From assembly GCF_036227325.1 (NCBI RefSeq), contig NZ_CP109467.1:2356001-2420000 (forward strand): a stretch of DNA of 64,000 nucleotides, written 5' to 3'. The first letter of the stretch is position 1. Each line of letters starts with the position of its first letter. Origin of the DNA: Streptomyces sp. NBC_01465 (GTDB lineage: Bacteria > Actinomycetota > Actinomycetes > Streptomycetales > Streptomycetaceae). Made by a program: the position numbers and the translations under genes. The notes under the pieces are model-generated. The model had not been told where the DNA came from. It searched no databases and saw only the letters and a list, made by a program, of their open reading frames with translations. Positions 7,187 to 25,312 of this stretch are shown here, one piece after another.

Positions 7187-7221
7187 GCACCGAGGGTAAG
7201 TGGCCGGACTGACAGCGGGCC

Positions 7222-8204: not shown

Positions 8205-8227
8205 TTGTCAGTGCCCTCACTTACGGT
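8205..8227 (+). promoter_or_regulatory. RecA-independent DNA-damage (PafBC-type, RecA-NDp) promoter of the DUF4132 operon
   Basis: TTGTCAGTG (8205-8213), exactly 8 nt, then TACGGT (8222-8227). This matches the published mycobacterial/Streptomyces RecA-NDp consensus tTGTCrgtg, N8, TAnnnT, recognised with the WYL-domain activator PafBC. The ATG at 8290 is about 60 nt downstream of the -10, with a GGGGAGGGAG ribosome site. Function is inferred from the motif. Confidence 0.75.
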
Positions 8228-8289
8228 GATCGGCAACTGAAGTTGATGTTCGGGGAGAGCATCGGCCAATCCGGGGAGGGAGCTCTGCC

Positions 8290-9189
8290 ATGGGCTGGAT
8301 CGAGACGGCGACGGGCGGATATTCCGTCGGCCTGGACGGCACGAAAGTGCTGTGCAGGAACGCGGCGGGCCGTGCGCTGAAGCAGGTGCCCGCCAAGCTC
8401 CGCGACGACGCGGAGGTGGTGCGGCTGCGGCAGGTGGCGCAGTGGCTGGAGCGGCACGCACGGGAGTGCCGCGAGCAGGTGGACACCTGGCTGGTGCGGT
8501 CGCTGCCGGTGCCGGCCGCGCTGCTGGCGCGGGTCTGGCCGGATCCCGCCTGGCAGGAGGCGCTGCGGGATCTGGTGGTGGCGCCGGTGGGCGCGGACGG
8601 TGACGCCGACTTCGCGCGTGCCGGGTTCCTGCGGGACGCGGATCCGGATCCGAGCCGGGGGCTGGGCGTGGTCGACCTCGACGGGGACTCGGTACGGCTG
8701 ACGGAGGAGTCCGTGCTGATCCCCCATCCCGTGCTGCTGCTCGAAGACCTGGAGGAACTGCGCGAGTTCGCGGCGGAGCTGGGCGTCGAGCAGGGGCTGG
8801 AGCAGTTGTTCCGCGAGGTGTGGCCGCGGCCCGCCGACCTCGAAGGGCCGGCCGGTGCCGCGCACGAGTGGGGCGCGTACGCGGGCGGGACGTTCGAGGA
8901 GTTGCGTCATGCGACGGGCCGGGCGGTGGCGGCCGGGTACCGGGTGCGCGGTGGATACGCGGTGTGTCCGACGGTCGAGGGCGGCAGGCCTGTGGAGGCC
9001 GCGTACTGGGTGGGCGACGACTACCCGGAGGGCGAGGCGTACACCGGCGCTCTGGAGTGGCGGGACGCCGGCGGCAAGCGGCTGACTCTGCGCGAAGTGG
9101 GGCCTGTGGCCTGGTCGGAGGGGGCGCGGATGGCTGCGCTGGTGTTCGCGGGGCGTGTGGTCAAGGACGACGAGGGGGAACTGCTGTGA
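8290..9189 (+). CDS. DUF4132 (MolR/YehI C-terminal-like) protein
   Basis: This 299-residue protein resembles the DUF4132 domain at the C-terminus of E. coli YehI (MolR). It has the N-terminal strand pattern GYSVGLDGTKVLCRN, a helix with ALKQVPAKLRDDAEV, the central SVLIPHPVLLLEDLEEL, and the terminal GPVAWSEGARMAALVF. In E. coli the domain is part of a ~1200-residue protein; here it stands alone as the first gene of the set. Its molecular activity is unknown. It starts after the damage-type promoter at 8205-8227 and ends in a GTGA overlap with the next gene, which implies translational coupling. I am confident of the family and have no basis for a catalytic claim. Confidence 0.8.
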   Translation: MGWIETATGGYSVGLDGTKVLCRNAAGRALKQVPAKLRDDAEVVRLRQVAQWLERHARECREQVDTWLVRSLPVPAALLARVWPDPAWQEALRDLVVAPVGADGDADFARAGFLRDADPDPSRGLGVVDLDGDSVRLTEESVLIPHPVLLLEDLEELREFAAELGVEQGLEQLFREVWPRPADLEGPAGAAHEWGAYAGGTFEELRHATGRAVAAGYRVRGGYAVCPTVEGGRPVEAAYWVGDDYPEGEAYTGALEWRDAGGKRLTLREVGPVAWSEGARMAALVFAGRVVKDDEGELL

Positions 9190-12100
9190 GCGGACTGCTG
9201 GAGGCCGGGGCGGTACTGCCGCTCGGCGGCGGTGTGGATGCGGATGCGGGCGATGTGCTGACCGCGCGGGCGTACGGGCATTCCGTACTGGACGGGCGCA
9301 CGGTGGTGCGGTTGGTGCCCGAGGCTCTGGGGCCGGCGGAGGATCTCTCACTCGAATATCTGGGGTTCGCGGCCGAATCCTCCGCGCTGGTGGGGCGGGT
9401 GAAGCGGCAGTCGCTGGGGTTCCCCGCGTGGGCGCTGGTCCATGATCCGGCCAACGGGCACCACGCCCTGGCCGTGGTCAAGGAGATGGAGCGGCTGGCC
9501 CGGATGGTGGCGAGCAAGCCGGGGAACGCCAAGGACGGGTTCGACGAGATCGCCGGGCGGCTGGACCGGTCGGTTCCGCAGTTCCTGCCGACGTACTACG
9601 AACAGGTGGCACGGCTCTTCCTGGCGGCCGAGTCGGTGCAGCAGGCGTCGGCCTTCTTCGGCAAGGCGCGGGCCGCCGAACAGCGGCATGCGCTGGTGGT
9701 CGACGAGGAGCGGCTGCGCGAGGTGTTCCTGGAGTTCGCCGGGGCGGGCGCGTTGAGCGGGAAGGCGCTGCGCGACCATGCGAAGGGCCTGGCGGAGAGG
9801 CTGTCGGCGCAGGAGGCGTACGCACAGTTCAGGTCGCTGTCCGTGGAGCGGTGCGCGGCCGGGCTCGCCCCGTACGCGGGCATGCTGGAGGATCTGCGGC
9901 GGCTGGCCAGGAAGACCGGTCTCGATGCGCGGGCCGAAGAGCGGGAACTGCTCGCGGAGATCATCCACTCGGGGGCGATGAACCGGGCTGCGGCGAGCTT
10001 CTGGACGGCCGCGCTGCCCGCGCTGGCGGAGGTCGCCGGCGCTGAACAGGGAGTCAGGGAACGGCTGCTGGCGCTCTTCCCGTCGGCGGGCGGGGACAGT
10101 CCTGAGGTCTTCGACGCGGCGTGGCTGGGCCTGCTCGACAGGTGCGGGGCGATCGGGCTGCTGGAGGACGGGACGGTGCCGGCCGCCGCGTGGCTGGAGG
10201 CCTGGGCGAAGCACCGCAAGCGCGGCTGGCGGCAGACGAAGCGGCTCGCCGGGGAACTGTCTCTGGTGGAGCGTCTTTCGGCCCGGCTGATCGCGGACGG
10301 GACACCGGTTCAGCTGGTCAGCGGACGTGGCTGGCGTGAGGCTGCCGACCTCGATCTGCTGGACACGGCGCTGGCAGCGGGAGTTCCGGTCGCCGATCCC
10401 TCCGCGCGGTCCGCGCGGCTGCAGCTCGACTCCTGGATCCAGGACGACGGGGAGGGACGGCGGGATCTGGTCGCGCTCACGTCCGACCCGCGCTTCGCCG
10501 CGCTCATGAAAGAGGCGGTGAAGAACCTCTCGGACGCCAACGGGCAGTGGACCGGGCCCTCGCAGCGGTTGCAGCGCGCCGCCGAGTATCCGGCGCTGCG
10601 GGCCGTCATCGCCGCCTGGCTCCGGGACCGCGCCGAGGAGGTGGGGCGGCCGATCGGGCTTCCCGGGCTGCGCAATCTGCTGCGCGATGTGGCGCTGTTC
10701 GCGTCTCCTTCCGTACTGGCGACCGCGCCCGCCGCGGTGCGGCGGATCGTCTCCTTCGACCCGGCACCGGTGCTGGGACGGTCACTGCGGGCGGGCGTCT
10801 ACGACGAGTTGGGCTGGCCCGCGCTCGACGAGGCGCTGAACCGGGTGAGCGCGGCGAGCGGGAAGAAGAACTTCCACGGCGTGGACGCGTGGCCCGCGCT
10901 GGGGGTGCGGGCCGGGCTCCAGGTCGCGCTGGCCGGGCCTGCGGAGGTGCTCGACGACCGCGCGCTGAACCTGCCCGCGCCCACCGCGCACCGGGATCCG
11001 CTCGTGCGGTACGTGGACGGGCAGTGGCTCACCGCGTCCTGGGCCGACGGGGGGTGGAAGGGCACCTGGTCGGGCAGGCCGGCCGACGTCTTCAAGGTGA
11101 CGGGTTCACTGCACGGCAGCGGCCGTGTCTCCCTCGCCATGCCCGGCGGAGGCCGCAGTTACGGCGGGCGGCCGGTGCACGCCGGTGACACGTCCTTCGC
11201 GGAGCAGCAGCGCGAGATCGCCTTCGACACCATCTCCTACTGGGTGCTGCACGACGGCAGTTGGTACGAGTACGACCCCGAGACCGCGCGACGCGGGCGG
11301 GCGTCGGTGCCGGCCTTCTTCGACTCGGCGCTCGTGGGCGCCGGAGCCGGGGTTCGGTTGGCCGAGGCAGGGTGTCGGCTGCTGCCGGTGCAGCCCGGCC
11401 TCGAGGACTCGCCGTTCGGGTCGAAGGACGGAATGCTGGGCTGGTCGGTGACGTACGACGAGAACACCGGTACGCACACGGCCTGTTCGGTCGACGGAAC
11501 GCGCGGCCTGCCCGTCACTGCCGGTATCCCGGTGGCGCCACTCAGGATGCCCGGGAAGTCGGTGCTGCATCCCGTGCGGAGCCACTGGTCGGGTGAGCAC
11601 ATCGAGCTGCGGGACACGGACGGGGTCGTGGTCGCCACCCTGCAGGAGGGTGACCGGGGCAGCACGTACACAGCGGGCTCCCGGTTCGTACCGCCCCTCT
11701 GGTACTGGCATGCGCTGCGACCCCGCGACGAACGGGGTTCGGCCGCGCTCCGGTCGGTGAGCGACACGGATGCGGCGGCGCTGCTGGCAGCGGTGGAGGA
11801 GGGGCTCACCGCTGCGGAAGCCGTAGCGCGGGTCCTGCCCGCGATCACCGACGAGGCGCTGGTCGCAGGGGTGGCCGGGGTGGTGCAGGAGGCCGTCAGG
11901 TGCGCCGAGCGGCTCGGCAGGCTTGCGGAGAAGGCCGTACAGGGGGAGGCCTCGCCGGCCGCTCCGGTCGTGCGGCATGCGACGGACGGGCTGTTGTCCG
12001 GATCGCTGAACGCGCTGCTGGACAACAGAGGGGCCCACTACGGGTTCGGGAGTCCCGACTACGCGGCCACCACGGCCGTGGACCAACTGCACGTACTGCG

Positions 12101-14033
12101 ACAGGTGTTGCGGGTTCCGCCGCCGTCCGGCGACGAGACGTTCAGCTTCGGCGCGACGCGTGTCGAATGGCGCGGGCTCGCCGGCGTCGGCCTGGCCGCG
12201 GCCGCGCTGCGGGCCGTGCACCCGGTCATGGGCGAGAAGGAGCGGGCGGCGCTGGTCGAGTTCCTCACCGCCGCACTCGACTGCGGTGAGGCCGGGGACT
12301 CGGTCCTGGCCGACCCGCGGGGCAGGCTGCGCTCGCTGGTTCTTTCCGCTCCGTCGGGACCCGCCGGGGTCGGTACGGTCCGCCGCGACGGACAGCGGGT
12401 CGTACTGATCACCGCGGCCACCTGGAGGCCCGTCTCCGGACAGCACTGGTGTGCCCTGGAGTACGACCCTGCCGGGCAGTTCGGGCCGTGGGAGGGGTGG
12501 CAGATCCAGGAGACACAGGTGCACGGTGCGCCGGACGACCCGGTGAGGGCGCCCGCACTGCGCCGGCTGCTGGCCGTGGCCGCCGAGCGCGGACCGGTGC
12601 CGTTCCGGCCGGAACAGGTGACGGAGTTCGCCGAGGCGACCGGTGTGGACACCGCCTCCGCGCTGCTGATGCTGCTGGGGCTTCCTGGGCATCACGCGTA
12701 CGGCCGCAACGATCTGCCCGGAGCCGAGTGGCTGACGCCTCTGGGGCTGAAGGCGACACATGTCGGGACGGCCAGGGAGAGTCTCGGGCAGATGGGCGCC
12801 GAGCTCCGGCGCCGGCTCGTCGGCCTGTTGGTGCCCGAAGCGCCCGAGCAGGTCGACGGGCTCTGGGAGCGGGGCTTCGACCTGGGACCGGTGATCGACG
12901 GGTGGATCGAGGCACGCGGCAAGCAGCGCCCCGTTCCGCAGGAGTTGCTCGACCGGGCCGTTCGGGAGGGACTGGGGGCGATGGAGTTGCAACTGGCGCT
13001 CAACCCGAAGCTGGACGCGCGGCTCTGGGGCCGTACCGTGCAGCGCCTCAAGGACGGCGTGATGGGGGCGGAGGAGCCCGGGAAGCTGCTGGACCTGCGG
13101 GGGCTGTCGCGGATCGCCGTCGGACTGCGCTGGCTGGCGTACCGGCTGCCGTACGGCGATCCGCTGCGGGAGGTGCTTCCCGAAACGCTGCGTGCGGTGC
13201 GTGAGCGGATGGCCGATCCCGGGCTGCTGTTCCAGATCGACCAGGGCTGGGCGCAGCCGGGGCAGTTGTCGCTCTCGGAGCGGATCCGGGAGGCATGCGC
13301 GATGCCCGGGACCGGCGGGGCGAATGCGGAGGGGCTGGTGTCCGCCGGACCTGCGCTGGTGCTCGGGCCGACCCGGTACAGCGGGGAGTACGGGCGGGAG
13401 ACCGTCTGGCTGCGGCCGGCCGCGCTGCTGGAGGACGGGGTGGTGGATCACTCTGCCGTGAAGCTGGTGCTGGCGGCGAGTGAGCAGTTGGTGGGGCTGC
13501 GGGCGGTGCGGGCGCTGCTGGGAGAGCGGTTCGCGGAGCTGGTCGGTGCCGGTGGTGCGGAGGGATCCGTGAGTGCGCCTCAGGACCCGGGGGTGTCCGT
13601 TCCGGGTCTGGTGAGTGAGGCCGCGGCCCGGTTCGGTCTCTCGGACGATGCGGCCACGCTCTATCTGATGCTGCTCGCGCTTCCCGATCCGACCGACCGC
13701 AACCAGGCGTTGTGGACGGGCTGGAAGCCGGCCCGGCTGAAGAAGGCCCGGGCCGAACTGGCCGCCACCGAGCTGGTGGTGGAGGCCAAGCGGTCGCGTG
13801 CGGGGCGTTCGCTGTTCCTGCCCGGCGGCTGGGTGGAGGTCAAGTCGCCCCGTCTGCCGTGGGAGTCCTGGAAGTCGGAGCTGCTGCCGGCCCGGGGCGA
13901 GGGCGTGTTCGTCGTACCGGACTGTCCGGTGGCGGTGCTGTACGCGCGGGCGTGGCAGCGCGTCGTGGAGGGTGATGTGCCGGGGTTCGAGGAGTTCACC
14001 GGCCGCGAGAGCCGTAGGGGAGGCAGGCGATGA
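9186..14033 (+). CDS. Giant 1615-residue protein of unknown function in the DUF4132/MoxR/VWA operon
   Basis: I do not recognise a catalytic domain. The 1615 residues are soluble, with no signal peptide or membrane segment. Residues ~1-400 are mostly helical, and a beta-rich middle has several Trp/Tyr motifs (GSWYEYDP, YWHALRPRD). The last ~100 residues look like a winged helix (WKPARLKKARAELAATELVV, then a wing and FLPGGWVEV), so nucleic-acid or protein binding is possible. The GTG start overlaps the preceding stop (GTGA) after a GAGGGGGA ribosome site, and its own stop overlaps the ATPase start (ATGA). By position and size it probably supplies the bulk of a MolR/YehI-like function together with the DUF4132 protein, but this is inference. 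Confidence 0.85.
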   Translation: MSGLLEAGAVLPLGGGVDADAGDVLTARAYGHSVLDGRTVVRLVPEALGPAEDLSLEYLGFAAESSALVGRVKRQSLGFPAWALVHDPANGHHALAVVKEMERLARMVASKPGNAKDGFDEIAGRLDRSVPQFLPTYYEQVARLFLAAESVQQASAFFGKARAAEQRHALVVDEERLREVFLEFAGAGALSGKALRDHAKGLAERLSAQEAYAQFRSLSVERCAAGLAPYAGMLEDLRRLARKTGLDARAEERELLAEIIHSGAMNRAAASFWTAALPALAEVAGAEQGVRERLLALFPSAGGDSPEVFDAAWLGLLDRCGAIGLLEDGTVPAAAWLEAWAKHRKRGWRQTKRLAGELSLVERLSARLIADGTPVQLVSGRGWREAADLDLLDTALAAGVPVADPSARSARLQLDSWIQDDGEGRRDLVALTSDPRFAALMKEAVKNLSDANGQWTGPSQRLQRAAEYPALRAVIAAWLRDRAEEVGRPIGLPGLRNLLRDVALFASPSVLATAPAAVRRIVSFDPAPVLGRSLRAGVYDELGWPALDEALNRVSAASGKKNFHGVDAWPALGVRAGLQVALAGPAEVLDDRALNLPAPTAHRDPLVRYVDGQWLTASWADGGWKGTWSGRPADVFKVTGSLHGSGRVSLAMPGGGRSYGGRPVHAGDTSFAEQQREIAFDTISYWVLHDGSWYEYDPETARRGRASVPAFFDSALVGAGAGVRLAEAGCRLLPVQPGLEDSPFGSKDGMLGWSVTYDENTGTHTACSVDGTRGLPVTAGIPVAPLRMPGKSVLHPVRSHWSGEHIELRDTDGVVVATLQEGDRGSTYTAGSRFVPPLWYWHALRPRDERGSAALRSVSDTDAAALLAAVEEGLTAAEAVARVLPAITDEALVAGVAGVVQEAVRCAERLGRLAEKAVQGEASPAAPVVRHATDGLLSGSLNALLDNRGAHYGFGSPDYAATTAVDQLHVLRQVLRVPPPSGDETFSFGATRVEWRGLAGVGLAAAALRAVHPVMGEKERAALVEFLTAALDCGEAGDSVLADPRGRLRSLVLSAPSGPAGVGTVRRDGQRVVLITAATWRPVSGQHWCALEYDPAGQFGPWEGWQIQETQVHGAPDDPVRAPALRRLLAVAAERGPVPFRPEQVTEFAEATGVDTASALLMLLGLPGHHAYGRNDLPGAEWLTPLGLKATHVGTARESLGQMGAELRRRLVGLLVPEAPEQVDGLWERGFDLGPVIDGWIEARGKQRPVPQELLDRAVREGLGAMELQLALNPKLDARLWGRTVQRLKDGVMGAEEPGKLLDLRGLSRIAVGLRWLAYRLPYGDPLREVLPETLRAVRERMADPGLLFQIDQGWAQPGQLSLSERIREACAMPGTGGANAEGLVSAGPALVLGPTRYSGEYGRETVWLRPAALLEDGVVDHSAVKLVLAASEQLVGLRAVRALLGERFAELVGAGGAEGSVSAPQDPGVSVPGLVSEAAARFGLSDDAATLYLMLLALPDPTDRNQALWTGWKPARLKKARAELAATELVVEAKRSRAGRSLFLPGGWVEVKSPRLPWESWKSELLPARGEGVFVVPDCPVAVLYARAWQRVVEGDVPGFEEFTGRESRRGGRR

Positions 14034-15178
14034 CGGGTTCCGTAGGGGCTGTGCAGGACCGGCAGGTCGCGCTGCCCGAGGACCGGTATGCGCGGGAGCT
14101 GGCGTTTCTCGCCGCGTACGACGAAGGGGCGAGGCCTCCGGGGTGGCGGCTGACGCCGCGTGCGGTGGTCACCTTCGTCTGCGGTTCCGGTGATGAGGTG
14201 CTGCGGGCGTCGGACGGTCAACAGACGGTCGTCGCACGGAAGTTCGTGGGCGACCGGGCTCTGGTCGAGCGGTGTGTGGTCACGTTGGCGGGCGATCGGG
14301 GGCTGCTGCTGGTCGGGGAGCCCGGCACCGCCAAATCGATGCTCTCCGAGCTCCTGTCCGCCGCCGTGTGCGGAACGAGCACGCTCACCGTGCAGGGCAC
14401 GGCGGGCACCACCGAGGACCAGCTCCGGTACGGCTGGAACTACGCGATGCTGCTGGCCAAGGGCCCGAGTCGGCAGGCTCTGGTCCCGTCTCCGGTGCTG
14501 ACGGCGATGACGCGCGGCGCGGTCGCGCGCATCGAGGAGGTCACGCGGTGTCTGCCCGAGGTCCAGGACGCCCTGGTGTCGCTGCTGTCCGAGCGGCGGA
14601 TGTCCGTACCCGAACTGGCCGGTGGGGAGGACGGGGACGGGACGGTGCACGCCGTGCCCGGGTTCACGCTGATCGCCACGGCCAACCTCCGGGACAAGGG
14701 TGTCTCCGAGATGTCCGCCGCACTCAAGCGCCGCTTCAACTTCGAGACGGTCGGCCCGATCGGTGACCTCGACGCGGAGACGGCCCTGGTGCGAAGCCAG
14801 GCGACGGCCGCGCTGGCACGTTCCGGGGCCGAGTTCGCCGTGGACGACACCGTGCTGCAGGCGCTGGTGACCGCGTTCCGGGATCTGCGGACCGGGCGCA
14901 GCGCGGAAGGCTGGGAGATCGAGCGGCCCTCGACGGTGATGTCCACGGCGGAAGCGGTGCAGGTCGCCTCGGCCATGGGGATCGGCGCCGCATATCTGGG
15001 CACGGGCCGGGATGTCGTACGGAGCCTGCCCGGCCATCTGCTCGGGACCGTACGGAAGGACGACCCGGCCGATCACGCACGGCTGTTGGGGTACTGGGAC
15101 GGGCCCGTGCGGCGGCGGGCGGAGGGCGGGGCTCCGCTCTGGCGCACGCTGTGGGAGCTGCGTGATGAGCTCGCCTGA
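14030..15178 (+). CDS. MoxR-type AAA+ ATPase (YehL-like)
   Basis: This 382-residue AAA+ ATPase has Walker A GEPGTAKSM at residues 96-104 and a Walker B region AVARIEEVTRC around 164-174 with paired glutamates E169-E170. A sensor segment ATANLRDKGVSEMSAALKRR includes the arginine-finger region. MoxR ATPases remodel partners through an accompanying VWA protein, and here that partner is encoded by the next gene. The first ~70 residues are a family-specific extension containing GWRLTPRAVVTFVCG. The start overlaps the previous stop (ATGA), and its last 14 bp overlap the DUF5682-VWA start. It corresponds to E. coli YehL. It probably uses ATP to load or remodel the giant or DUF4132 protein. Confidence 0.92.
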   Translation: MTGSVGAVQDRQVALPEDRYARELAFLAAYDEGARPPGWRLTPRAVVTFVCGSGDEVLRASDGQQTVVARKFVGDRALVERCVVTLAGDRGLLLVGEPGTAKSMLSELLSAAVCGTSTLTVQGTAGTTEDQLRYGWNYAMLLAKGPSRQALVPSPVLTAMTRGAVARIEEVTRCLPEVQDALVSLLSERRMSVPELAGGEDGDGTVHAVPGFTLIATANLRDKGVSEMSAALKRRFNFETVGPIGDLDAETALVRSQATAALARSGAEFAVDDTVLQALVTAFRDLRTGRSAEGWEIERPSTVMSTAEAVQVASAMGIGAAYLGTGRDVVRSLPGHLLGTVRKDDPADHARLLGYWDGPVRRRAEGGAPLWRTLWELRDELA

Positions 15179-18100
15179 GGAGGCTGTCGAGGAGCTGGCG
15201 GGGTGCCGCGCCCCGTTCCTGATCGGGGTGCGGCACCACTCCCCCGCGCTGGCCGCAGCCCTGCCCGCGATGCTCGACCGGGCCGGTCCCGACGTTCTGC
15301 TGGTGGAGCTGCCGGAGGAGTTCACACCGTGGCTGGAGCATCTGGGCGATCCGGCAACGGTGCCGCCAGTGGCGCTGGCGGGCAGCGGGGGTGCGGGCGA
15401 CGGTGGTCCGGTCTTCCTGCCGTTCGCCGAGTTCTCCCCGGAGTTGGCGGCGATCCGCTGGGCGCGCGCGGCAGGGGTGCCGGTGGTGGCGTTCGACCTG
15501 CCGCTGGCCGCGCGGGCGGCGGATTCCGGGGATCGGGCAGGGTCTCGGGACCCGGGCTCGGCGGGGGCGCTCGCGGCAGCGCTGAGGGCGCGGACCGGTG
15601 GCCGGCCCGGTGACGATCTGTGGGACCGGCTCGTGGAGGCCACGGCGCCCGGCTCGACGCCCGAGGCTCTCCGGCGGGCGGCGCTGCTGGTGGGATGGGC
15701 GCTGCGCGGGGACACGGGCGAGGTGGATCCGTACGACCTGCGGCGCGAGGAGAACATGCGGCGCAGGCTGGCGTCGTACGCGGGCCGGCGTACAGCGGCG
15801 GTGATCGGCGCGTTCCACGCCCCGGCCCTGATGTCTCCGTACGAGAGCGGCGTTTCGGCCGGTGGCCCGGCGGAGTCCGTGGCCGACTCCGCGGACGTCG
15901 TCACCTCGCTCGTGCCGTACGCGTATCCGCTGCTCGACGCGCGGTCCGGGTATCCCGCCGGGATCCGCGATCCGGAGTGGCAGCACGGGGTGTTCCTCGC
16001 AGGGGGCGATCCGGCGCGACTCGACGATCTGCTGACCGACACCGCCGTACGTATATGTGCTGCCGTACGGGATGCCGGGCACCCCAGCGGGCCCGCCGAT
16101 GCACGCGAAGTGGTGCGAGTCGCACGGGATCTGGCCACCTTGCGGGGGCTGCCGGCCGCCGGGCGCGGCGAGTTGGTCGAGGCCGTGCAGACCGTGCTCA
16201 CGCAGGGGCAACTCCTCGGGCGGGGGCGTGTGGTGGCCTCGGCCATGGAGCAGGTGCTCGTCGGGTGGCGGCAGGGCCGGCTCGCGCCCGGGACACCGCG
16301 CTCCGGGCTCGGCCCGTGCGTCGAAGCACTGACCGGGGAGCTGTCGCTGCCGGGACCGGACTCCCCCGCCCGGCGTGAACTGCGCCTCGACGTCCTGAGG
16401 TCCGATCTGGACCGGCGCCGGGAGATCATGCTGCGTCGGCTGGCCGCCTGCCGGATCCCGTACGGCCAGGAGACCGAGGTCGCGGGGGTCGGCGATGCCG
16501 CCGCCCTCACCACCCGATGGGCCGTGGCCTGGTCCCCCGCGACCGCCGCGATCCTCGATGCCGCGGGAACCCACGGAGTGACCCTGGAGCAGGCCGCTGC
16601 CGGAATGCTGCGGCAGCGGCGCGCCACAGAGCAGCGGGAGGGCGGGCCGACCGCCGCCCAGATACTGGCCGGCCTAAAGGAGGCCGCCCACTGCGGGCTG
16701 CCCGTGCTCGCTGGGGAGCGGCTGACGGAGACGGCCGAGATACTGCCCGCGGTCGGCTCGCTTCCCGAACTGCTCGCGGGTCTCGGCCTGTTGGACAGGA
16801 TCGCCGCCGGCCATCTGCCCGGGCTGCCTGCCGACTGGTCGGCCGACGCCGTCACCGCGGCGTACGAGGAGGTGGCCGCGGCGGGGGTCCGTGCGCTGGA
16901 CGGGCTGACGGGTTCCACCGAGCCGGAGGACGCCCGTGCGCTCGTCACGCTCGCCACGCAGGCCGGCGCCGCGGGCGGAGGCCTGCGTCTCGCGGACGCC
17001 CTGGCCAGGCTGGACGCGGCGGCGACCCCGTTGATCCAGGGCGCGGCGGGCGCGGCGCGGGTCCTCCTCGGACAGCGGGACGCCGGAGGCTTCGGGACCC
17101 GGATGGCATCCCGTACGGACGGGGCGACCACGCCCGAACTCCGCGCCGACCTGGCCGCGTTCCTGCGCGGTGCGCTGCTGGCCGCAGGCCCCCTGCTGGA
17201 GGTCGGCCAGGCGCTGGACCCCCTCATCGAACGGGTCGAGTCACTGCCCGACCGCCCTTTCATGGACCGGCTGCCCGCACTGCGCTCCGGTTTCGAAGCG
17301 CTGTCACCGGCCGCCAGGGCCCGGCTGCTGGCGGCAGTGGAGGACCGTACGGGAGTCGCCGCGGGCGTGCTCCCTTCCGCAGTGCAGGACCCGGCCGTCC
17401 TGGCTCTCCTCGCCGAGGCCGACCTGGCGGGACGTGAGGCGCTGGCAGCAAGGGAGTTGGAGGTCGGCGCCACCTGGTCCGATACGGCCCCCGTGCTGCC
17501 CGGCACCGTCCCCGTACGGGTGACCGGCCACGCCCTCACCGCCGCCGAGCGGTGGCGGCTGCTGCTGGGACGGGGGCAGGAGCTGACCGGGTCCGCGCGC
17601 CGGATCGCGGGCGCGCTCGACGAGTTGTACGGAAGCGGGCACGGCGAGGGTTCGCGCGGCGGGGACGGCGGGGGCTCCGGTGGTGGGTCCGAGGCGTCGT
17701 ACCCCGATGTGCGTTCCTGGTCGGAGGAGCTGACGGCGCTCTTCGGGCCCGGGGTGCGCGAGGAAGTGCTGGCCGCCGCAGCCGACGCGGGGCGGCTCGA
17801 CGCGGCGCTGGAGCTGGACCCGGCCTCGGCCCGCCCCTCCGTGGACCTGCTGCGGACGGTGTTGTCGTACGCGGGCGGAATGCCCGAGCGGCAACTGGCC
17901 CGGCTGCGACCGCTGGTGGCGCGTCTCGTACGGGAACTGACCGAGGCCCTCGCCAACAGGATGCGGCCCGCGCTCACCGGCCTGTCCCACCCGCGCCCCA
18001 CCCGCCGCCCCGGCGGGCAGCTGGACCTGGCGCGCACCCTGCGGGCCAACCTCGCCACGGCGCGCCGGGATCCGGAGTCCGGCGCGGTGACGGTGCTGCC

Positions 18101-18647
18101 CGAGCGGCCGGTGTTCCGTACGAAGGCGCGCAGGTCGGCCGACTGGCGCCTGGTGCTCGTCGTCGATGTGTCCGGGTCCATGGAGGCCTCGACGGTCTGG
18201 GCGGCGCTCACCGCCGCCGTGCTGGCCGGAGTCCCGGCCCTCAGCACGCACTTCGTCGCCTTCTCCACCGAGGTCCTCGACCTCACGGACCGGGTCGACG
18301 ACCCACTCGGCCTGCTGCTCGAAGTGCGCGTCGGCGGGGGTACGAACATCGCGCGCGGGCTGCGCCATGCCCGCGCGCTCGTGACCGTGCCCTCCCGCAC
18401 GCTGGTCGTGCTGGTCAGCGACTTCGAGGAGGGCGGTCCGGTCGCGCCGCTGCTCGGCGAGGTCCGCGCACTGGTCGACTCGGGCTGCCATGTCCTGGGC
18501 TGTGCGTCGCTCGACGATGCCGGCCGGCCACGCTACTCGACGGGCGTGGCGGGTCAGTTGGTCGCCGCCGGAATGCCGGTCGCCGCTCTCAGCCCCTTGG
18601 AACTGGCCCGCTGGGTCGGCGAGCGCGTAGGAGGTACGCACCGATGA
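15165..18647 (+). CDS. DUF5682-VWA fusion protein (YehM+YehP-like)
   Basis: The protein has 1160 residues. The N-terminus carries the DUF5682 signature PFLIGVRHHSPA (residues 17-28), then DVLLVELPEEF, and FHAPALMSPY near 220, as in E. coli YehM. A Gly/Ser-rich linker sits near residues 825-845. The C-terminus is a von Willebrand A domain with an intact MIDAS: DVSGSM at 1001-1006, a threonine in GGGTNIARG, and an aspartate in VSDFEEGG. E. coli encodes these as separate YehM (~760 aa) and YehP (~380 aa); the summed length matches this single chain. The VWA is expected to dock on the MoxR ATPase encoded just upstream. The ATG at 15165 overlaps that gene by 14 bp. Confidence 0.9.
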   Translation: MSSPEEAVEELAGCRAPFLIGVRHHSPALAAALPAMLDRAGPDVLLVELPEEFTPWLEHLGDPATVPPVALAGSGGAGDGGPVFLPFAEFSPELAAIRWARAAGVPVVAFDLPLAARAADSGDRAGSRDPGSAGALAAALRARTGGRPGDDLWDRLVEATAPGSTPEALRRAALLVGWALRGDTGEVDPYDLRREENMRRRLASYAGRRTAAVIGAFHAPALMSPYESGVSAGGPAESVADSADVVTSLVPYAYPLLDARSGYPAGIRDPEWQHGVFLAGGDPARLDDLLTDTAVRICAAVRDAGHPSGPADAREVVRVARDLATLRGLPAAGRGELVEAVQTVLTQGQLLGRGRVVASAMEQVLVGWRQGRLAPGTPRSGLGPCVEALTGELSLPGPDSPARRELRLDVLRSDLDRRREIMLRRLAACRIPYGQETEVAGVGDAAALTTRWAVAWSPATAAILDAAGTHGVTLEQAAAGMLRQRRATEQREGGPTAAQILAGLKEAAHCGLPVLAGERLTETAEILPAVGSLPELLAGLGLLDRIAAGHLPGLPADWSADAVTAAYEEVAAAGVRALDGLTGSTEPEDARALVTLATQAGAAGGGLRLADALARLDAAATPLIQGAAGAARVLLGQRDAGGFGTRMASRTDGATTPELRADLAAFLRGALLAAGPLLEVGQALDPLIERVESLPDRPFMDRLPALRSGFEALSPAARARLLAAVEDRTGVAAGVLPSAVQDPAVLALLAEADLAGREALAARELEVGATWSDTAPVLPGTVPVRVTGHALTAAERWRLLLGRGQELTGSARRIAGALDELYGSGHGEGSRGGDGGGSGGGSEASYPDVRSWSEELTALFGPGVREEVLAAAADAGRLDAALELDPASARPSVDLLRTVLSYAGGMPERQLARLRPLVARLVRELTEALANRMRPALTGLSHPRPTRRPGGQLDLARTLRANLATARRDPESGAVTVLPERPVFRTKARRSADWRLVLVVDVSGSMEASTVWAALTAAVLAGVPALSTHFVAFSTEVLDLTDRVDDPLGLLLEVRVGGGTNIARGLRHARALVTVPSRTLVVLVSDFEEGGPVAPLLGEVRALVDSGCHVLGCASLDDAGRPRYSTGVAGQLVAAGMPVAALSPLELARWVGERVGGTHR

Positions 18648-20332
18648 CCGCACTCCCGCCGGTGACCGCCGAGGTGGCGGCCGCCGCACTCGACCTGCTG
18701 CCAGCCCGGCTGCGCAAACGCGTGGACGGGGCGGTGGCCAAGGCTGCCGGTTGGCCGGTGGAGGTCACACCGGACGGGGTGGTGGTGCGGGCGGCGGAGG
18801 ACACCGCGGTGACGCTGAAGGTGACGGGGACGGGGGTCGTCATGCATGCGGACGACGCCGTCTGTTCCTGCCTGCTGGCCCCGGCATGCCTGCACCGTGC
18901 TGCGGTGCTGTCGCGTGCGCCCCTGGCCGAGGCGGCCTCCGAGCCGCCGGCCTCCGAGCCGCCGGAGCCCGCGGCGGTGGACGAGGAGCAGGGACCTGGC
19001 CGGATTCCGGACCAGGACCCCTCCGCCGACTGGCCCGCTGCGGCGGCCCGGTCCCTGTGGGAGGCCGGAGTCGCCGTACTGGCGGCGGGAGTTGCGGGCA
19101 GTGGGGCGGTACACCGCAGCCGGCTCCTGCACGCCTCGCACTCCGCACGCCTCGCAGGGCTCCACCGGCCATCGGCGACGGCGGTGCGTGTCGCGCGCCG
19201 GCTCGGCGAGGCGCGCGGCGACGACCCCGCGTTCCGGCTCGGCGAACTGGTCGCGGATCTGGCCGAGTTGCTCGAATCCACCCGTCTCCCGAACCGCACC
19301 GCGCTCACCCCCGCGCGCCGCAGCTACACGCCGGCCGGACCCCTGCGCCTCTACGGCCTGTTCACCGAGCCTGTCGTGACCGCGTCCGGCTACGCGGGAG
19401 CCACCACGTACGCGCTCGCCCCGGACGGCTCCCTCCGTACGATCTCCGACATCGCCCCCGGTGCCGCCGACCGTGCCGCGCAGGCGGCCAACTCCCGTGT
19501 CCCCGGGGGTGCCGCGCTCTCCCTGCGCGAGCTGGGTGACGGCGGCGGGCTGATCCTCACCTCGCCCACGGTCTCCGCGGACGGCCGGATCGGCGGCGGA
19601 AGCGAGGTTCGTTCCGTTCGCGCGCAGGGTGCCCAGTGGCACGAAGCGCCGCTCGACACGCTGTGGGAGCAGCCGCCCGCAGCGCAACTCGACGCCCCCT
19701 CGGGGCTGCTCTTCCTCGCCGGCACCCTCACCACCGACGGCACCTTCGCCGCCGACGGGGGGCCCACCCTCCGCCTGGCGGCACCGGACGAGCGGCTCGA
19801 GCTCCCGTACGCGGAGAACCTGCGCCTCCTCACCGCGCGCCCGGGCCTGACCTTGCGCATCATCGGCCGGGTCCGGTCCGAGCACCCGGGCTCGATCGCC
19901 GTCCTGGCCGCCGTCTGGCCGGGGCCCGACGGCGTCCCCGTACGCGCCGACCTCGGCCTGCGCCGCCTCAACCGCACGCACCTGCCGCCCCTCGCACCCG
20001 TCACGGCGGTGCCGCACCCCTCCCCGGCCGAACTCCCCGTCGCACTGGACCTGTTGCGCCGGACCGTCGACCGTACGGTGGCGGGCGGCCGCCCCGTCGC
20101 GGCGTGGGCGGCCGCGGACGGCGACCTGCCGCACCGGCTCAGGGCGGCGGGCCTGACCACCGGGGCGGACTGCGCCCGGGCGCTCGCCGACGCGGCGGCG
20201 GACCGCAGGCACGACGCACTCGGAAGGCTGCTCCCCGGCGACCCGGACGCCTTCGCCCGGGCCTGGCTCGCCGCCTCCGTCTATGCCAGGACGGCGACCA
20301 GGTCGCTGCTCACGGCGTCGTACCGGAGCTGA
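18644..20332 (+). CDS. SWIM zinc-finger protein (YehQ-like)
   Basis: The protein has 562 residues. The SWIM motif CxCx5CxH is present as C74, C76, C82 and H84 (VCSCLLAPACLHRAA). SWIM domains bind zinc and usually contact DNA or protein. The remainder has no domain I recognise, apart from an Ala/Glu/Pro-rich linker after the finger at ~90-115. The ATG at 18644 has GGAGGT upstream and overlaps the previous stop (ATGA), so it closes the five-gene run. It corresponds to E. coli YehQ, the last gene of that set. The 3' end overlaps the convergent PEP-mutase-like gene by 23 bp. Confidence 0.9.
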   Translation: MTALPPVTAEVAAAALDLLPARLRKRVDGAVAKAAGWPVEVTPDGVVVRAAEDTAVTLKVTGTGVVMHADDAVCSCLLAPACLHRAAVLSRAPLAEAASEPPASEPPEPAAVDEEQGPGRIPDQDPSADWPAAAARSLWEAGVAVLAAGVAGSGAVHRSRLLHASHSARLAGLHRPSATAVRVARRLGEARGDDPAFRLGELVADLAELLESTRLPNRTALTPARRSYTPAGPLRLYGLFTEPVVTASGYAGATTYALAPDGSLRTISDIAPGAADRAAQAANSRVPGGAALSLRELGDGGGLILTSPTVSADGRIGGGSEVRSVRAQGAQWHEAPLDTLWEQPPAAQLDAPSGLLFLAGTLTTDGTFAADGGPTLRLAAPDERLELPYAENLRLLTARPGLTLRIIGRVRSEHPGSIAVLAAVWPGPDGVPVRADLGLRRLNRTHLPPLAPVTAVPHPSPAELPVALDLLRRTVDRTVAGGRPVAAWAAADGDLPHRLRAAGLTTGADCARALADAAADRRHDALGRLLPGDPDAFARAWLAASVYARTATRSLLTASYRS

Positions 20333-23176: not shown

Positions 23177-23188
23177 ACGGTGGGGGGC

Positions 23189-25312
23189 ATGACCGACACC
23201 ACCACCCCGACCCACTGCCCCTACTGCGCCCTGCAGTGCGGGATGAACCTCAAGGCCGTGCCCGCCGGGGGCGTCGAAGTGGTGGAGCGGCCGGACTTCC
23301 CGGTCAATCGGGGCGCTTTGTGCGGAAAGGGGCGTACGGCACCCGAGGTGCTCTCCTCCAGTGTCCGCCTCACCGAGCCGCTCGTCCGCCGTGACGGCGT
23401 CCTCACCCCCGCCTCCTGGGAGGAGGCCGTCAGTACGGTCGCGGCCGCGCTGCGCGGGACGCGACGCGAGTACGGGGCCGACGCGGTGGGGGTCTTCGGC
23501 GGCGGGGGGCTCACCAACGAGAAGGCGTACACGCTGGGCAAGTTCGCCCGCGTCGCGCTCGGCACCTCGCAGATCGACTACAACGGGCGCTTCTGCATGT
23601 CGTCGGCCGCCGCCGCCCACCAGCGGGCCTTCGGGCTCGACCGCGGGCTGCCCTTCCCCGTGGAGGACATCGAGCACAGCGGCTGCGTCATCCTCGTCGG
23701 GTCCAATCCCGCCGAGACGATGCCGCCCGCACTGCGCTTCTTCACCCGGCTCAGGGAGAACGGCGGGAAGCTGATCGTCGTCGACCCGCGCCGCACCCGC
23801 ACCGCCGACCAGGCCGATCTGCACCTCTCGCCCCGCCCCGGGACCGATCTCGCCCTGGCACTCGGCCTGTTGCACCTGGTGATCGCGGAAGGCCGTACGG
23901 ACGAGGATTTCATCGCGGAACGCACCACCGGCTGGGAGGAGGCGCGGGCCGCCGCCATGGCGCACTGGCCCGAGCAGGTGGAGCGCATCACCGGAGTCCC
24001 GGTGCCCCAACTGCGGGCTGCGGCACGGATGTTCTGCGACGCCGGGAGCGGCATGGTGCTCACGGCGCGCGGACCCGAGCAGCAGTCCAAGGGGGTGGAC
24101 ACGGTCGGCGCCTGGATCAACCTCTGCCTCGCCACGGGGCGCGCCGGCCGGCCCCACTCCGGATACGGCTGCCTCACCGGCCAGGGCAACGGGCAGGGCG
24201 GCCGCGAACACGGCCAGAAGGCCGACCAGTTGCCCGGCTACCGCAAGATCGACGACCCGGCCGCCCGCCGCCATGTGGCCGAGGTCTGGGGCGTCGACCC
24301 CGACTCGCTCCCCGGCCCGGGACGCAGCGCCTACGAACTGCTCGACGCGCTCGGCGGCGACATCAGGACGCTCCTCGTCATGGGTTCCAACCCGGTCGTC
24401 TCCGCTCCCCGCGCCGGCCACATCGAACAGCGGCTGCGCTCCCTGGACTTCCTGGCCGTCGCGGACGTCGTCCTCTCCGAGACGGCCGCGCTTGCCGACG
24501 TCGTCCTGCCCGTGACGCAGTGGGCGGAGGAGACCGGGACCACGACCAATCTGGAGGGCCGGGTGCTGCTGCGGAAGCAGGCGCTGAGTGCTCCGGAAGG
24601 CGTACGGAGTGATCTCGAAGTCCTGCACGAGCTGGCCGCGGCCCTCGGCCACGCGAAGGGGTTCCCGTCCGAACCGGCCGAAGTCTTCGAGGAGTTGAGG
24701 CGCGCGTCGGCGGGCGGGGCCGCAGACTACTCCGGAATCACATATGCCCGCATCGAGGCGGAGGACGGCGTCTTCTGGCCGTGCCCGGACCCCGCACACC
24801 CCGGGACGCCCCGCCTCTTCCTGGACCGTTTCGCGACCCCGGACGGCCGCGCCCGCTTCGTCCCCGTCAGCCACCGGCCCGCGGCGGAGGAGACGGACGC
24901 GGAGTACCCGCTGCTGCTGACGACGGGCCGGGTCGCGTCCCAGTACCAGTCCGGCGCCCAGACCCGCCGCGTGCCCGCGCTCAACGCCGCGGCCCCCGGC
25001 CCCTTCGTCGAACTCCACCCCCGCCTCGCGGAGCGCCTCGGAGTCGCGGACGGCGACGCCCTCGCCGTCACCTCGCGGCGGGGCCGGGCCGTCGCGCCCG
25101 CGCGGGTCACCGAGACGATCCGCCCCGACACGGTCTTCATGCCGTTCCACTGGCCGGGCGAGGGCCGCGCCAACACCCTCACCAACCCGGCGCTGGACCC
25201 GACGTCGCGCATGCCGGAGTTCAAGGTCTGCGCGGTACGCGTCGAGCCCGCCAGTCCCCGCCCGGCACCGGACGCCCGCCCGACCGCAGACGCCGGGCCG
25301 CGGCGCCCGTGA
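23189..25312 (+). CDS. nasA: Assimilatory nitrate reductase, molybdopterin oxidoreductase family
   Basis: This enzyme reduces nitrate to nitrite in the cytoplasm. The 707-residue protein has an N-terminal [4Fe-4S] motif C10-x2-C13-x3-C17-x27-C45 (HCPYCALQCG, then GALCGKG). C136 in NGRFCMSSA is the likely molybdenum ligand, as in Nap/Nas enzymes rather than the Ser/SeCys types. Molybdopterin-binding segments follow (VGSNPAETMPP, GQGNGQGGREHGQ, TTGRVASQYQSGAQTRR). No signal peptide or C-terminal [2Fe-2S] domain is present, fitting a soluble assimilatory enzyme. The ATG at 23189 follows GGGGGG. The 3' end overlaps the convergent GGCT gene by 92 bp. The product feeds NirBD at 33358-37347; no nitrate transporter lies in the window. 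Confidence 0.92.
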   Translation: MTDTTTPTHCPYCALQCGMNLKAVPAGGVEVVERPDFPVNRGALCGKGRTAPEVLSSSVRLTEPLVRRDGVLTPASWEEAVSTVAAALRGTRREYGADAVGVFGGGGLTNEKAYTLGKFARVALGTSQIDYNGRFCMSSAAAAHQRAFGLDRGLPFPVEDIEHSGCVILVGSNPAETMPPALRFFTRLRENGGKLIVVDPRRTRTADQADLHLSPRPGTDLALALGLLHLVIAEGRTDEDFIAERTTGWEEARAAAMAHWPEQVERITGVPVPQLRAAARMFCDAGSGMVLTARGPEQQSKGVDTVGAWINLCLATGRAGRPHSGYGCLTGQGNGQGGREHGQKADQLPGYRKIDDPAARRHVAEVWGVDPDSLPGPGRSAYELLDALGGDIRTLLVMGSNPVVSAPRAGHIEQRLRSLDFLAVADVVLSETAALADVVLPVTQWAEETGTTTNLEGRVLLRKQALSAPEGVRSDLEVLHELAAALGHAKGFPSEPAEVFEELRRASAGGAADYSGITYARIEAEDGVFWPCPDPAHPGTPRLFLDRFATPDGRARFVPVSHRPAAEETDAEYPLLLTTGRVASQYQSGAQTRRVPALNAAAPGPFVELHPRLAERLGVADGDALAVTSRRGRAVAPARVTETIRPDTVFMPFHWPGEGRANTLTNPALDPTSRMPEFKVCAVRVEPASPRPAPDARPTADAGPRRP

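Follow-up and report, generated by a model that had tools for sequence, protein, structure and literature searches.

A conserved PafBC-type promoter motif upstream of a YehL-type MoxR operon in Streptomyces

Introduction

Which signal controls an operon that encodes a DUF4132 protein, a MoxR ATPase, a VWA protein and a SWIM-type protein, and what might the products be for? The question is raised by a short element at positions 8205-8227 of a 64,000-nucleotide stretch of Streptomyces sp. NBC_01465 (contig NZ_CP109467.1, positions 2,356,001 to 2,420,000; the whole of this stretch is called the window), which lies just upstream of such an operon. A first-pass annotation, made from the letters of the window and its reading frames, had taken the element for a RecA-independent (RecA-NDp) DNA-damage promoter of the PafBC type. 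Based on the analyses described below, we consider the element to be probably a working PafBC-dependent, RecA-NDp-type promoter, with a probability of about 0.82.

Results

The promoter motif

The consensus of RecA-NDp/PafBC promoters, TTGTCAGTG-N8-TAnnnT, was matched exactly at 8205-8227, as confirmed by a direct read of the two boxes and the spacer between them (Table 1). Both the fit to consensus and spacing and the distance of about 60 nucleotides to the first gene, as given in the first-pass annotation, were borne out; the end of TACGGT (8227) and the ATG at 8290 are separated by 62 nucleotides, and this ATG is preceded by a GGGGAGG box at 8273-8279. Searches were carried out with the strict motif TTGTCAGTGN8TANNNT, using the same pattern reversed as the control. 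Over the single contig of the genome, with its 9,138,776 bases, the strict motif had 34 exact copies and the reversed pattern none, while approximately 0.06 copies are expected from base composition (71% GC assumed); the motif is therefore more than a chance occurrence. Within the window, 8205-8227 was the sole exact match, and three matches with two or fewer mismatches were found, as compared with a mean of 0.36 in shuffled sequence.

Conservation of the motif

Among 121 genomes of the genus, 50 carried orthologues of gene 1, the first gene of the operon (E 1e-10). Upstream of the 30 best loci, the motif occurred with no mismatch at 14, one at 11, two at four and three at one, whereas the reversed sequence at the same loci showed four to six mismatches in all cases; among 3000 shuffles, three reached two mismatches and none fewer. 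A set of 47 named loci (46 Streptomyces and [Kitasatospora] records and one Actinacidiphila, with strains partly overlapping those of the 30-locus set) gave zero, one, two and three mismatches at 8, 27, 9 and 3 loci, respectively. The T, A and last T of the -10 box were retained in 30/30 and 46/47 loci of the two sets. In an alignment of the 30 loci from which near-identical rows had been removed (26 rows left), the mean frequency of the major base was 0.94 at the 12 defined positions, as compared with 0.62 in the spacer, 0.48 in the 30 nucleotides upstream and 0.62 in the 30 nucleotides downstream. The scan of orthologous operons thus found the motif to be conserved within the genus, with zero to two mismatches at 29 of the 30 loci against four to six in the control. 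The order gene 1-gene 2-MoxR-DUF5682 was kept in 41 of 44 loci, for which 7.2 kilobases downstream were available; of the other three, L110 is rearranged or incomplete and two stop short of DUF5682.

Two sites of the window with two mismatches, both on the minus strand (7193-7215 and 2566-2588), lie before an HD-domain (dGTPase-like) gene and dnaG, respectively. They were rejected as regulon members, as two mismatches were seen in only one of nine relatives for the HD gene and two of nine for dnaG, the rest having three to six, with some starts extrapolated.

Motif sites in the genome and the genus

Thirty of the 34 genome sites were read with their flanks, and the next gene was scanned with Pfam for 26 of them; the remaining four read sites are those of the window operon, a second DUF4132 gene and two sites without a Pfam scan (L010 and L027). 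Ten of the 30 sites precede genes of DNA repair, replication or deoxyribonucleoside triphosphates, namely those for UDG, a RecD2-like HHH protein, UvrB (L008), RecQ (L017), a RadA-like ATPase, rpsF, DnaX (L024), ThyX, RecA (L030) and a DEAD/DEAD_2 helicase. An ssb-like frame lies behind rpsF at its site; the names RadA and ssb are readings from the sequence. The other next genes include a macro-domain-like protein (under the Pfam cut-off), a WGR protein, a SWIM protein, the DUF4132 gene and the window operon, and the remainder are a sigma factor, transporters, enzymes and unknowns. One site (L026), located within a long frame, is possibly not a promoter. Two of the sites are of separate interest: one (L013, genome 2436008-2436030) lies 46 nucleotides before an aminoglycoside 3-N-acetyltransferase-family gene, and the other (L014, genome 3093093-3093115) lies before the gene of a sigma factor whose C-terminal domain is SnoaL-like, possibly a second response layer.

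The motif at 8205-8227 is, judged by its letters, of the RecA-NDp type, as recA and further repair genes of this genome have the same pattern before them. The genome also encodes pafB-pafC, in that two WYL proteins adjoin pafA, one of them with the PafC helix-turn-helix (PF19187, 3e-31). A count over 61 genomes from the genus gave 1200 exact sites (median 16 per genome, range 3 to 40), as compared with three for the reversed pattern. Since the exact sites so outnumber the reversed ones, repair genes stand downstream and pafBC is present, a PafBC-type regulon appears to exist in Streptomyces. Against this stands the statement of Stratton et al. that their initial search suggested the mycobacterial PafBC motif to be unconserved in S. 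venezuelae (PMC9380542; here and below, cited papers are represented by their accessible sections). The present counts indicate such a regulon in a genus for which that paper had left the question open.

The same sites bear on the possibility that 8205-8227 is an ordinary housekeeping sigma promoter, matching by accident and giving constitutive or growth-phase expression. The -10 box is of the housekeeping type, and most of the motif sites read have no obvious DNA gene downstream, both of which would suit this explanation. However, the upstream 9-mer is conserved nearly as well as the -10 box, the exact motif is rare, its places include those before repair genes such as recA and uvrB, and it is borne by four distinct loci with genes of these families (see below). 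We regard an accidental match as improbable and prefer the PafBC/RecA-NDp reading of the first-pass annotation, which gains support, in sequence terms, from the conserved motif, the same pattern before recA and repair genes, and the presence of pafBC.

The five-gene operon

The first-pass annotation had described a four-gene DUF4132-MoxR-VWA-SWIM operon. Genes of these kinds are all present, but the operon has five members, as a gene for a 1615-amino-acid protein lies between the DUF4132 and MoxR genes; likewise, the VWA domain is there, and a large N-terminal DUF5682 in the same protein had been missed (Table 1).

Table 1. Features of the promoter region and the operon, in window coordinates.
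Feature	Position	Strand	Basis
Upstream box TTGTCAGTG, PafBC/RecA-NDp-type	8205..8213	+	Sequence; genome count; footprint across relatives
Spacer CCCTCACT, 8 nucleotides	8214..8221	+	Direct read
-10 box TACGGT (TAnnnT)	8222..8227	+	Sequence; conserved T, A, final T
Gene 1, DUF4132 protein, 299 amino acids, first in operon	8290..9189	+	Pfam PF13569, 2e-25
Gene 2, 1615-amino-acid protein	9186..14033	+	Open reading frame; GTG start chosen by analyst
Gene 3, MoxR AAA+ ATPase, YehL type	14030..15178	+	PF07728, 1.3e-38
Gene 4, DUF5682 fused to CoxE-type VWA (YehM+YehP fusion)	15165..18647	+	PF18934, 1.2e-185; PF05762, 7e-64; start chosen
Gene 5, SWIM-type CxC..CxH protein, 562 amino acids, YehQ-like position	18644..20332	+	Motif; start chosen

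Gene 1 scored above the PF13569 cut-off and covered 153 of its 179 positions, whereas Pfam, NCBIfam and PADLOC all gave no match for gene 2. The metal ion-dependent adhesion site (MIDAS) motif of gene 4 is DVSGS. Gene 5 carries CSCLLAPACLH from residue 74, and its whole-protein Pfam SWIM score was below the cut-off (14.1 against the 19.6 bits needed). Successive genes, with the starts chosen by the analyst, overlap by 4, 4, 14 and 4 nucleotides; because neighbouring genes overlap, a single predicted promoter should serve all five. A search by sequence found no related protein among solved structures, and a further search gave only three weak matches (E 0.08 to 1). The predicted model of the DUF5682-VWA protein was mediocre (mean pLDDT, the predicted local distance difference test, 69.6), and Foldseek with this model returned nothing at E 0.001. 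A VWA fold match was found. By eye, DUF5682 may be like the TraB/TIKI/ChaN-type enzymes (GxRHHxP, E and FHxPAL).

The same kinds of genes occur in the same order in the yeh cluster of E. coli MG1655 (yehF, yehH, a pseudogene, yehI, yehK, yehL, yehM, yehP and yehQ). Aligned over 362 columns, the MoxR protein of the window and E. coli YehL share 46% identity (E 2e-95), and gene 4 shows 29% identity to YehM (DUF5682) and 39% to YehP (VWA). Gene 4 and YehP have DxSGS in common, and gene 5 and YehQ have CxC..CxH; genes 1 and 5 gave no BLAST match to YehI and YehQ, so that these likenesses are of Pfam domain or motif alone. The window operon differs in the fusion of YehM and YehP, the extra 1615-amino-acid gene, the lack of a WGR gene and the PafBC-type box. 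Since it combines a MoxR gene, DUF5682 and a VWA domain with MIDAS, a SWIM motif and DUF4132, the operon is, on its gene content, a YehL-type MoxR system, a known uncharacterised kind. A MoxR subfamily bears the name YehL in the literature, where what MoxR proteins do is called unclear (PMC3893208). In the literature searched, no established function was found for yeh-kind MoxR/VWA/SWIM genes, and DUF4132 figures in the accessible sections on E. coli ST131 as an insertion site only (PMC9334617).

The E. coli cluster also raises the alternative that the operon is damage-regulated through LexA/RecA and not through PafBC. The SOS-box consensus is TCGAACN4GTTCGA. A LexA-like half-site pair with one mismatch is located directly before yehF, which we take to be the gene called molR, and molR is the point in favour of this alternative. 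It is listed among the LexA-regulated (SOS) genes of E. coli (PMC3978071, PMC11039860, PMC4576408). When the yeh region of E. coli was scanned for LexA half-sites, 10 matches were found against 7.0 expected, showing no enrichment; the pair before yehF is one of the ten. In the window, however, no SOS-box-like site with two or fewer mismatches was found near the start of the operon, and the two such sites present, one of them within the MoxR gene at 14232, compare with 2.4 expected. Control of the window operon by LexA therefore seems very improbable, and PafBC-dependent control is preferred.

Related loci

The genome has a second, divergent system, in which SWIM-DUF5691 genes run one way and MoxR-DUF5682-VWA genes the other, with back-to-back boxes of which one is exact and one has a single mismatch. 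At 30 loci of this system in the genus, the SWIM-side motif was exact in 30/30; on the MoxR side, 27 had a single mismatch (CA in place of TA), and the other three had four to five. In the MoxR-side box (L124:5132-5154, minus strand), the CA -10 variant is preceded by a well-conserved GGTGCA stretch. The second DUF4132 gene (824 amino acids, with DUF7737) had the exact motif at 10 of 12 loci, and it was missing at the other two (L165 and L167). The WGR gene had the exact motif in 21 of 26 loci and one mismatch in the remaining five. With the motif at the window, second-system, second DUF4132 and WGR loci, both DUF4132 genes and both YehL-type MoxR genes of the genome therefore have a damage-type motif. 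A 112-amino-acid protein without a Pfam match is encoded before the second DUF4132 gene (L122:10355-10693, minus strand); the DUF4132 gene of D. radiodurans is likewise preceded by one for a 134-amino-acid hypothetical protein, and BLAST showed no likeness of these two small proteins to each other.

Outside the genus, the strict motif was found at 0/9 gene-1 loci (L174, L176, L177, L182, L184-L187 and L191); in L185 and L186 the match to the gene 1 protein is partial, so that the stretch read may not be upstream. The recA promoters of other genera are degenerate, with TAnnnT in 8/9 and TGTC[AG] in 7/9, and none was recognisable in L225. A degenerate core, [N]TGTC[AG]N3-N8-TAnnnT, picked after these recA promoters had been seen, occurred at two of six gene-1 loci outside the genus. 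At the start of the second-system SWIM gene, the core was found at 12 of 20 non-genus loci, drawn from 29 non-genus genomes with a match; several of the 12 come from one family and are not independent, and one (L244) is the exact consensus. It was lacking at the other eight, one of which ends at a contig edge. Taken together, the link of the second system to the motif probably predates the genus, and for the operon of the window such an age is uncertain.

These distributions bear on a further explanation, which accepts the PafBC-type promoter and takes the products for a system of phage defence or conflict that reads damage merely as an infection alarm. The patchy occurrence of gene 1 orthologues would agree with such a role, as would the proposal that other MoxR-VWA systems are conflict systems (PMC7159879) and the placing of some next to CRISPR (clustered regularly interspaced short palindromic repeats) loci (PMC10910872). 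However, none of the five operon proteins matched PADLOC (2023) at E 0.01, a term search of the accessible sections of PMC7159879 found no DUF5682, DUF4132 or SWIM, and the second-system SWIM protein is near-universal in the genus (56/61 genomes). A defence role thus appears unlikely, although less so than the two alternatives weighed above, and a role in the damage response itself is preferred.

Discussion

The box, the 8-nucleotide spacing and the -10 at 8205-8227 are those of the RecA-NDp/PafBC promoters found in mycobacteria and, in Streptomyces, before recA and SCO6735, the last of which shows a 5-fold induction by ultraviolet (UV) light in the accessible report; the difference is that the target here is an uncharacterised operon. 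According to the model from mycobacteria, PafBC becomes active when single-stranded DNA is present at forks that are damaged or stalled. Activated PafBC would then let the housekeeping RNA polymerase initiate at the 8205-8227 box, and a transcript starting, by prediction, near 8234 would span the five overlapping genes. We infer from this both the binding of PafBC and the induction of the operon by DNA damage. Proteomics of an M. smegmatis pafBC mutant found lower amounts of MoxR1, MoxR2 and a von Willebrand factor protein (PMC5656591), which may or may not be of the YehL kind.

As to the products, the MoxR ring may be paired with the VWA adaptor as in NorQ-NorD, which likewise combines an AAA+ MoxR protein with a MIDAS VWA partner and differs in that the partners in the window are DUF5682, SWIM and DUF4132 proteins. 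NorQD inserts iron into nitric oxide reductase (PMC9976466). We tentatively propose, with rather less than even confidence, that the products form a metal-dependent AAA+ remodelling machine, which DUF5682, SWIM and DUF4132 would direct to a damage-associated target.

A comparable case is found in D. radiodurans, where DUF4132 and WGR genes are under a DNA-damage regulator. The DRA0165-DRA0166 operon (DUF4132) has a DdrO operator. After mitomycin C, the levels of tagged DRA0166 and of DR2173, a WGR protein, go up in wild-type cells and do not change in an irrE mutant (PMC8533742). We located the operator of DRA0165-DRA0166 in the sequence. DRA0166 is 28% identical to the second DUF4132 protein of our genome over 455 amino acids (E 3e-26), whereas the Deinococcus proteins gave no BLAST match to the window's own proteins. 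The Deinococcus case differs further in that the regulator, DdrO, is a repressor and that no MoxR/VWA gene is annotated in the 12.9 kilobases around DRA0165-DRA0166. Control of related genes by damage in two distant bacteria points to a shared role in surviving DNA damage. As a separate observation, molybdenum genes lie near both loci, a molybdopterin oxidoreductase gene in the window (23180-25312) and modA in Deinococcus (L252:8674-9429). E. coli MolR has been linked to molybdate, and the shared molybdenum neighbourhood is possibly a coincidence.

The first-pass annotation had known of no description of the connection with DNA damage for this gene set. This holds for the operon with its PafBC-type promoter, of which no report was found in the literature searched (subscription journals thinly covered, other texts in part), but not for its relatives, as the LexA control of E. 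coli molR and the DdrO control of Deinococcus DUF4132 and WGR genes were already known. The same literature gave nothing on DUF5682 and nothing joining the SWIM zinc finger, Streptomyces and DNA damage. What is new is the conserved PafBC-type link in Streptomyces, as the motif suggests it, and the pattern of three unrelated regulators.

A broader hypothesis, which we rate only slightly below even, is that the WGR/DUF4132/YehL-MoxR/DUF5682/VWA/SWIM set is an ancient DNA-damage response machine that has gone unrecognised, members of which may have come under the control of PafBC in actinomycetes, DdrO/IrrE in Deinococcus and LexA in E. coli; it would be a metal-dependent AAA+ remodeller acting on DNA or nucleoprotein at damaged forks. 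The interest of the locus lies in these three unrelated damage regulators, which would control members of one gene set. A conserved damage-type promoter at four loci in one genus, together with the regulated relatives elsewhere, poses a concrete and cheap question about the part of these genes in sensitivity to mitomycin C and UV.
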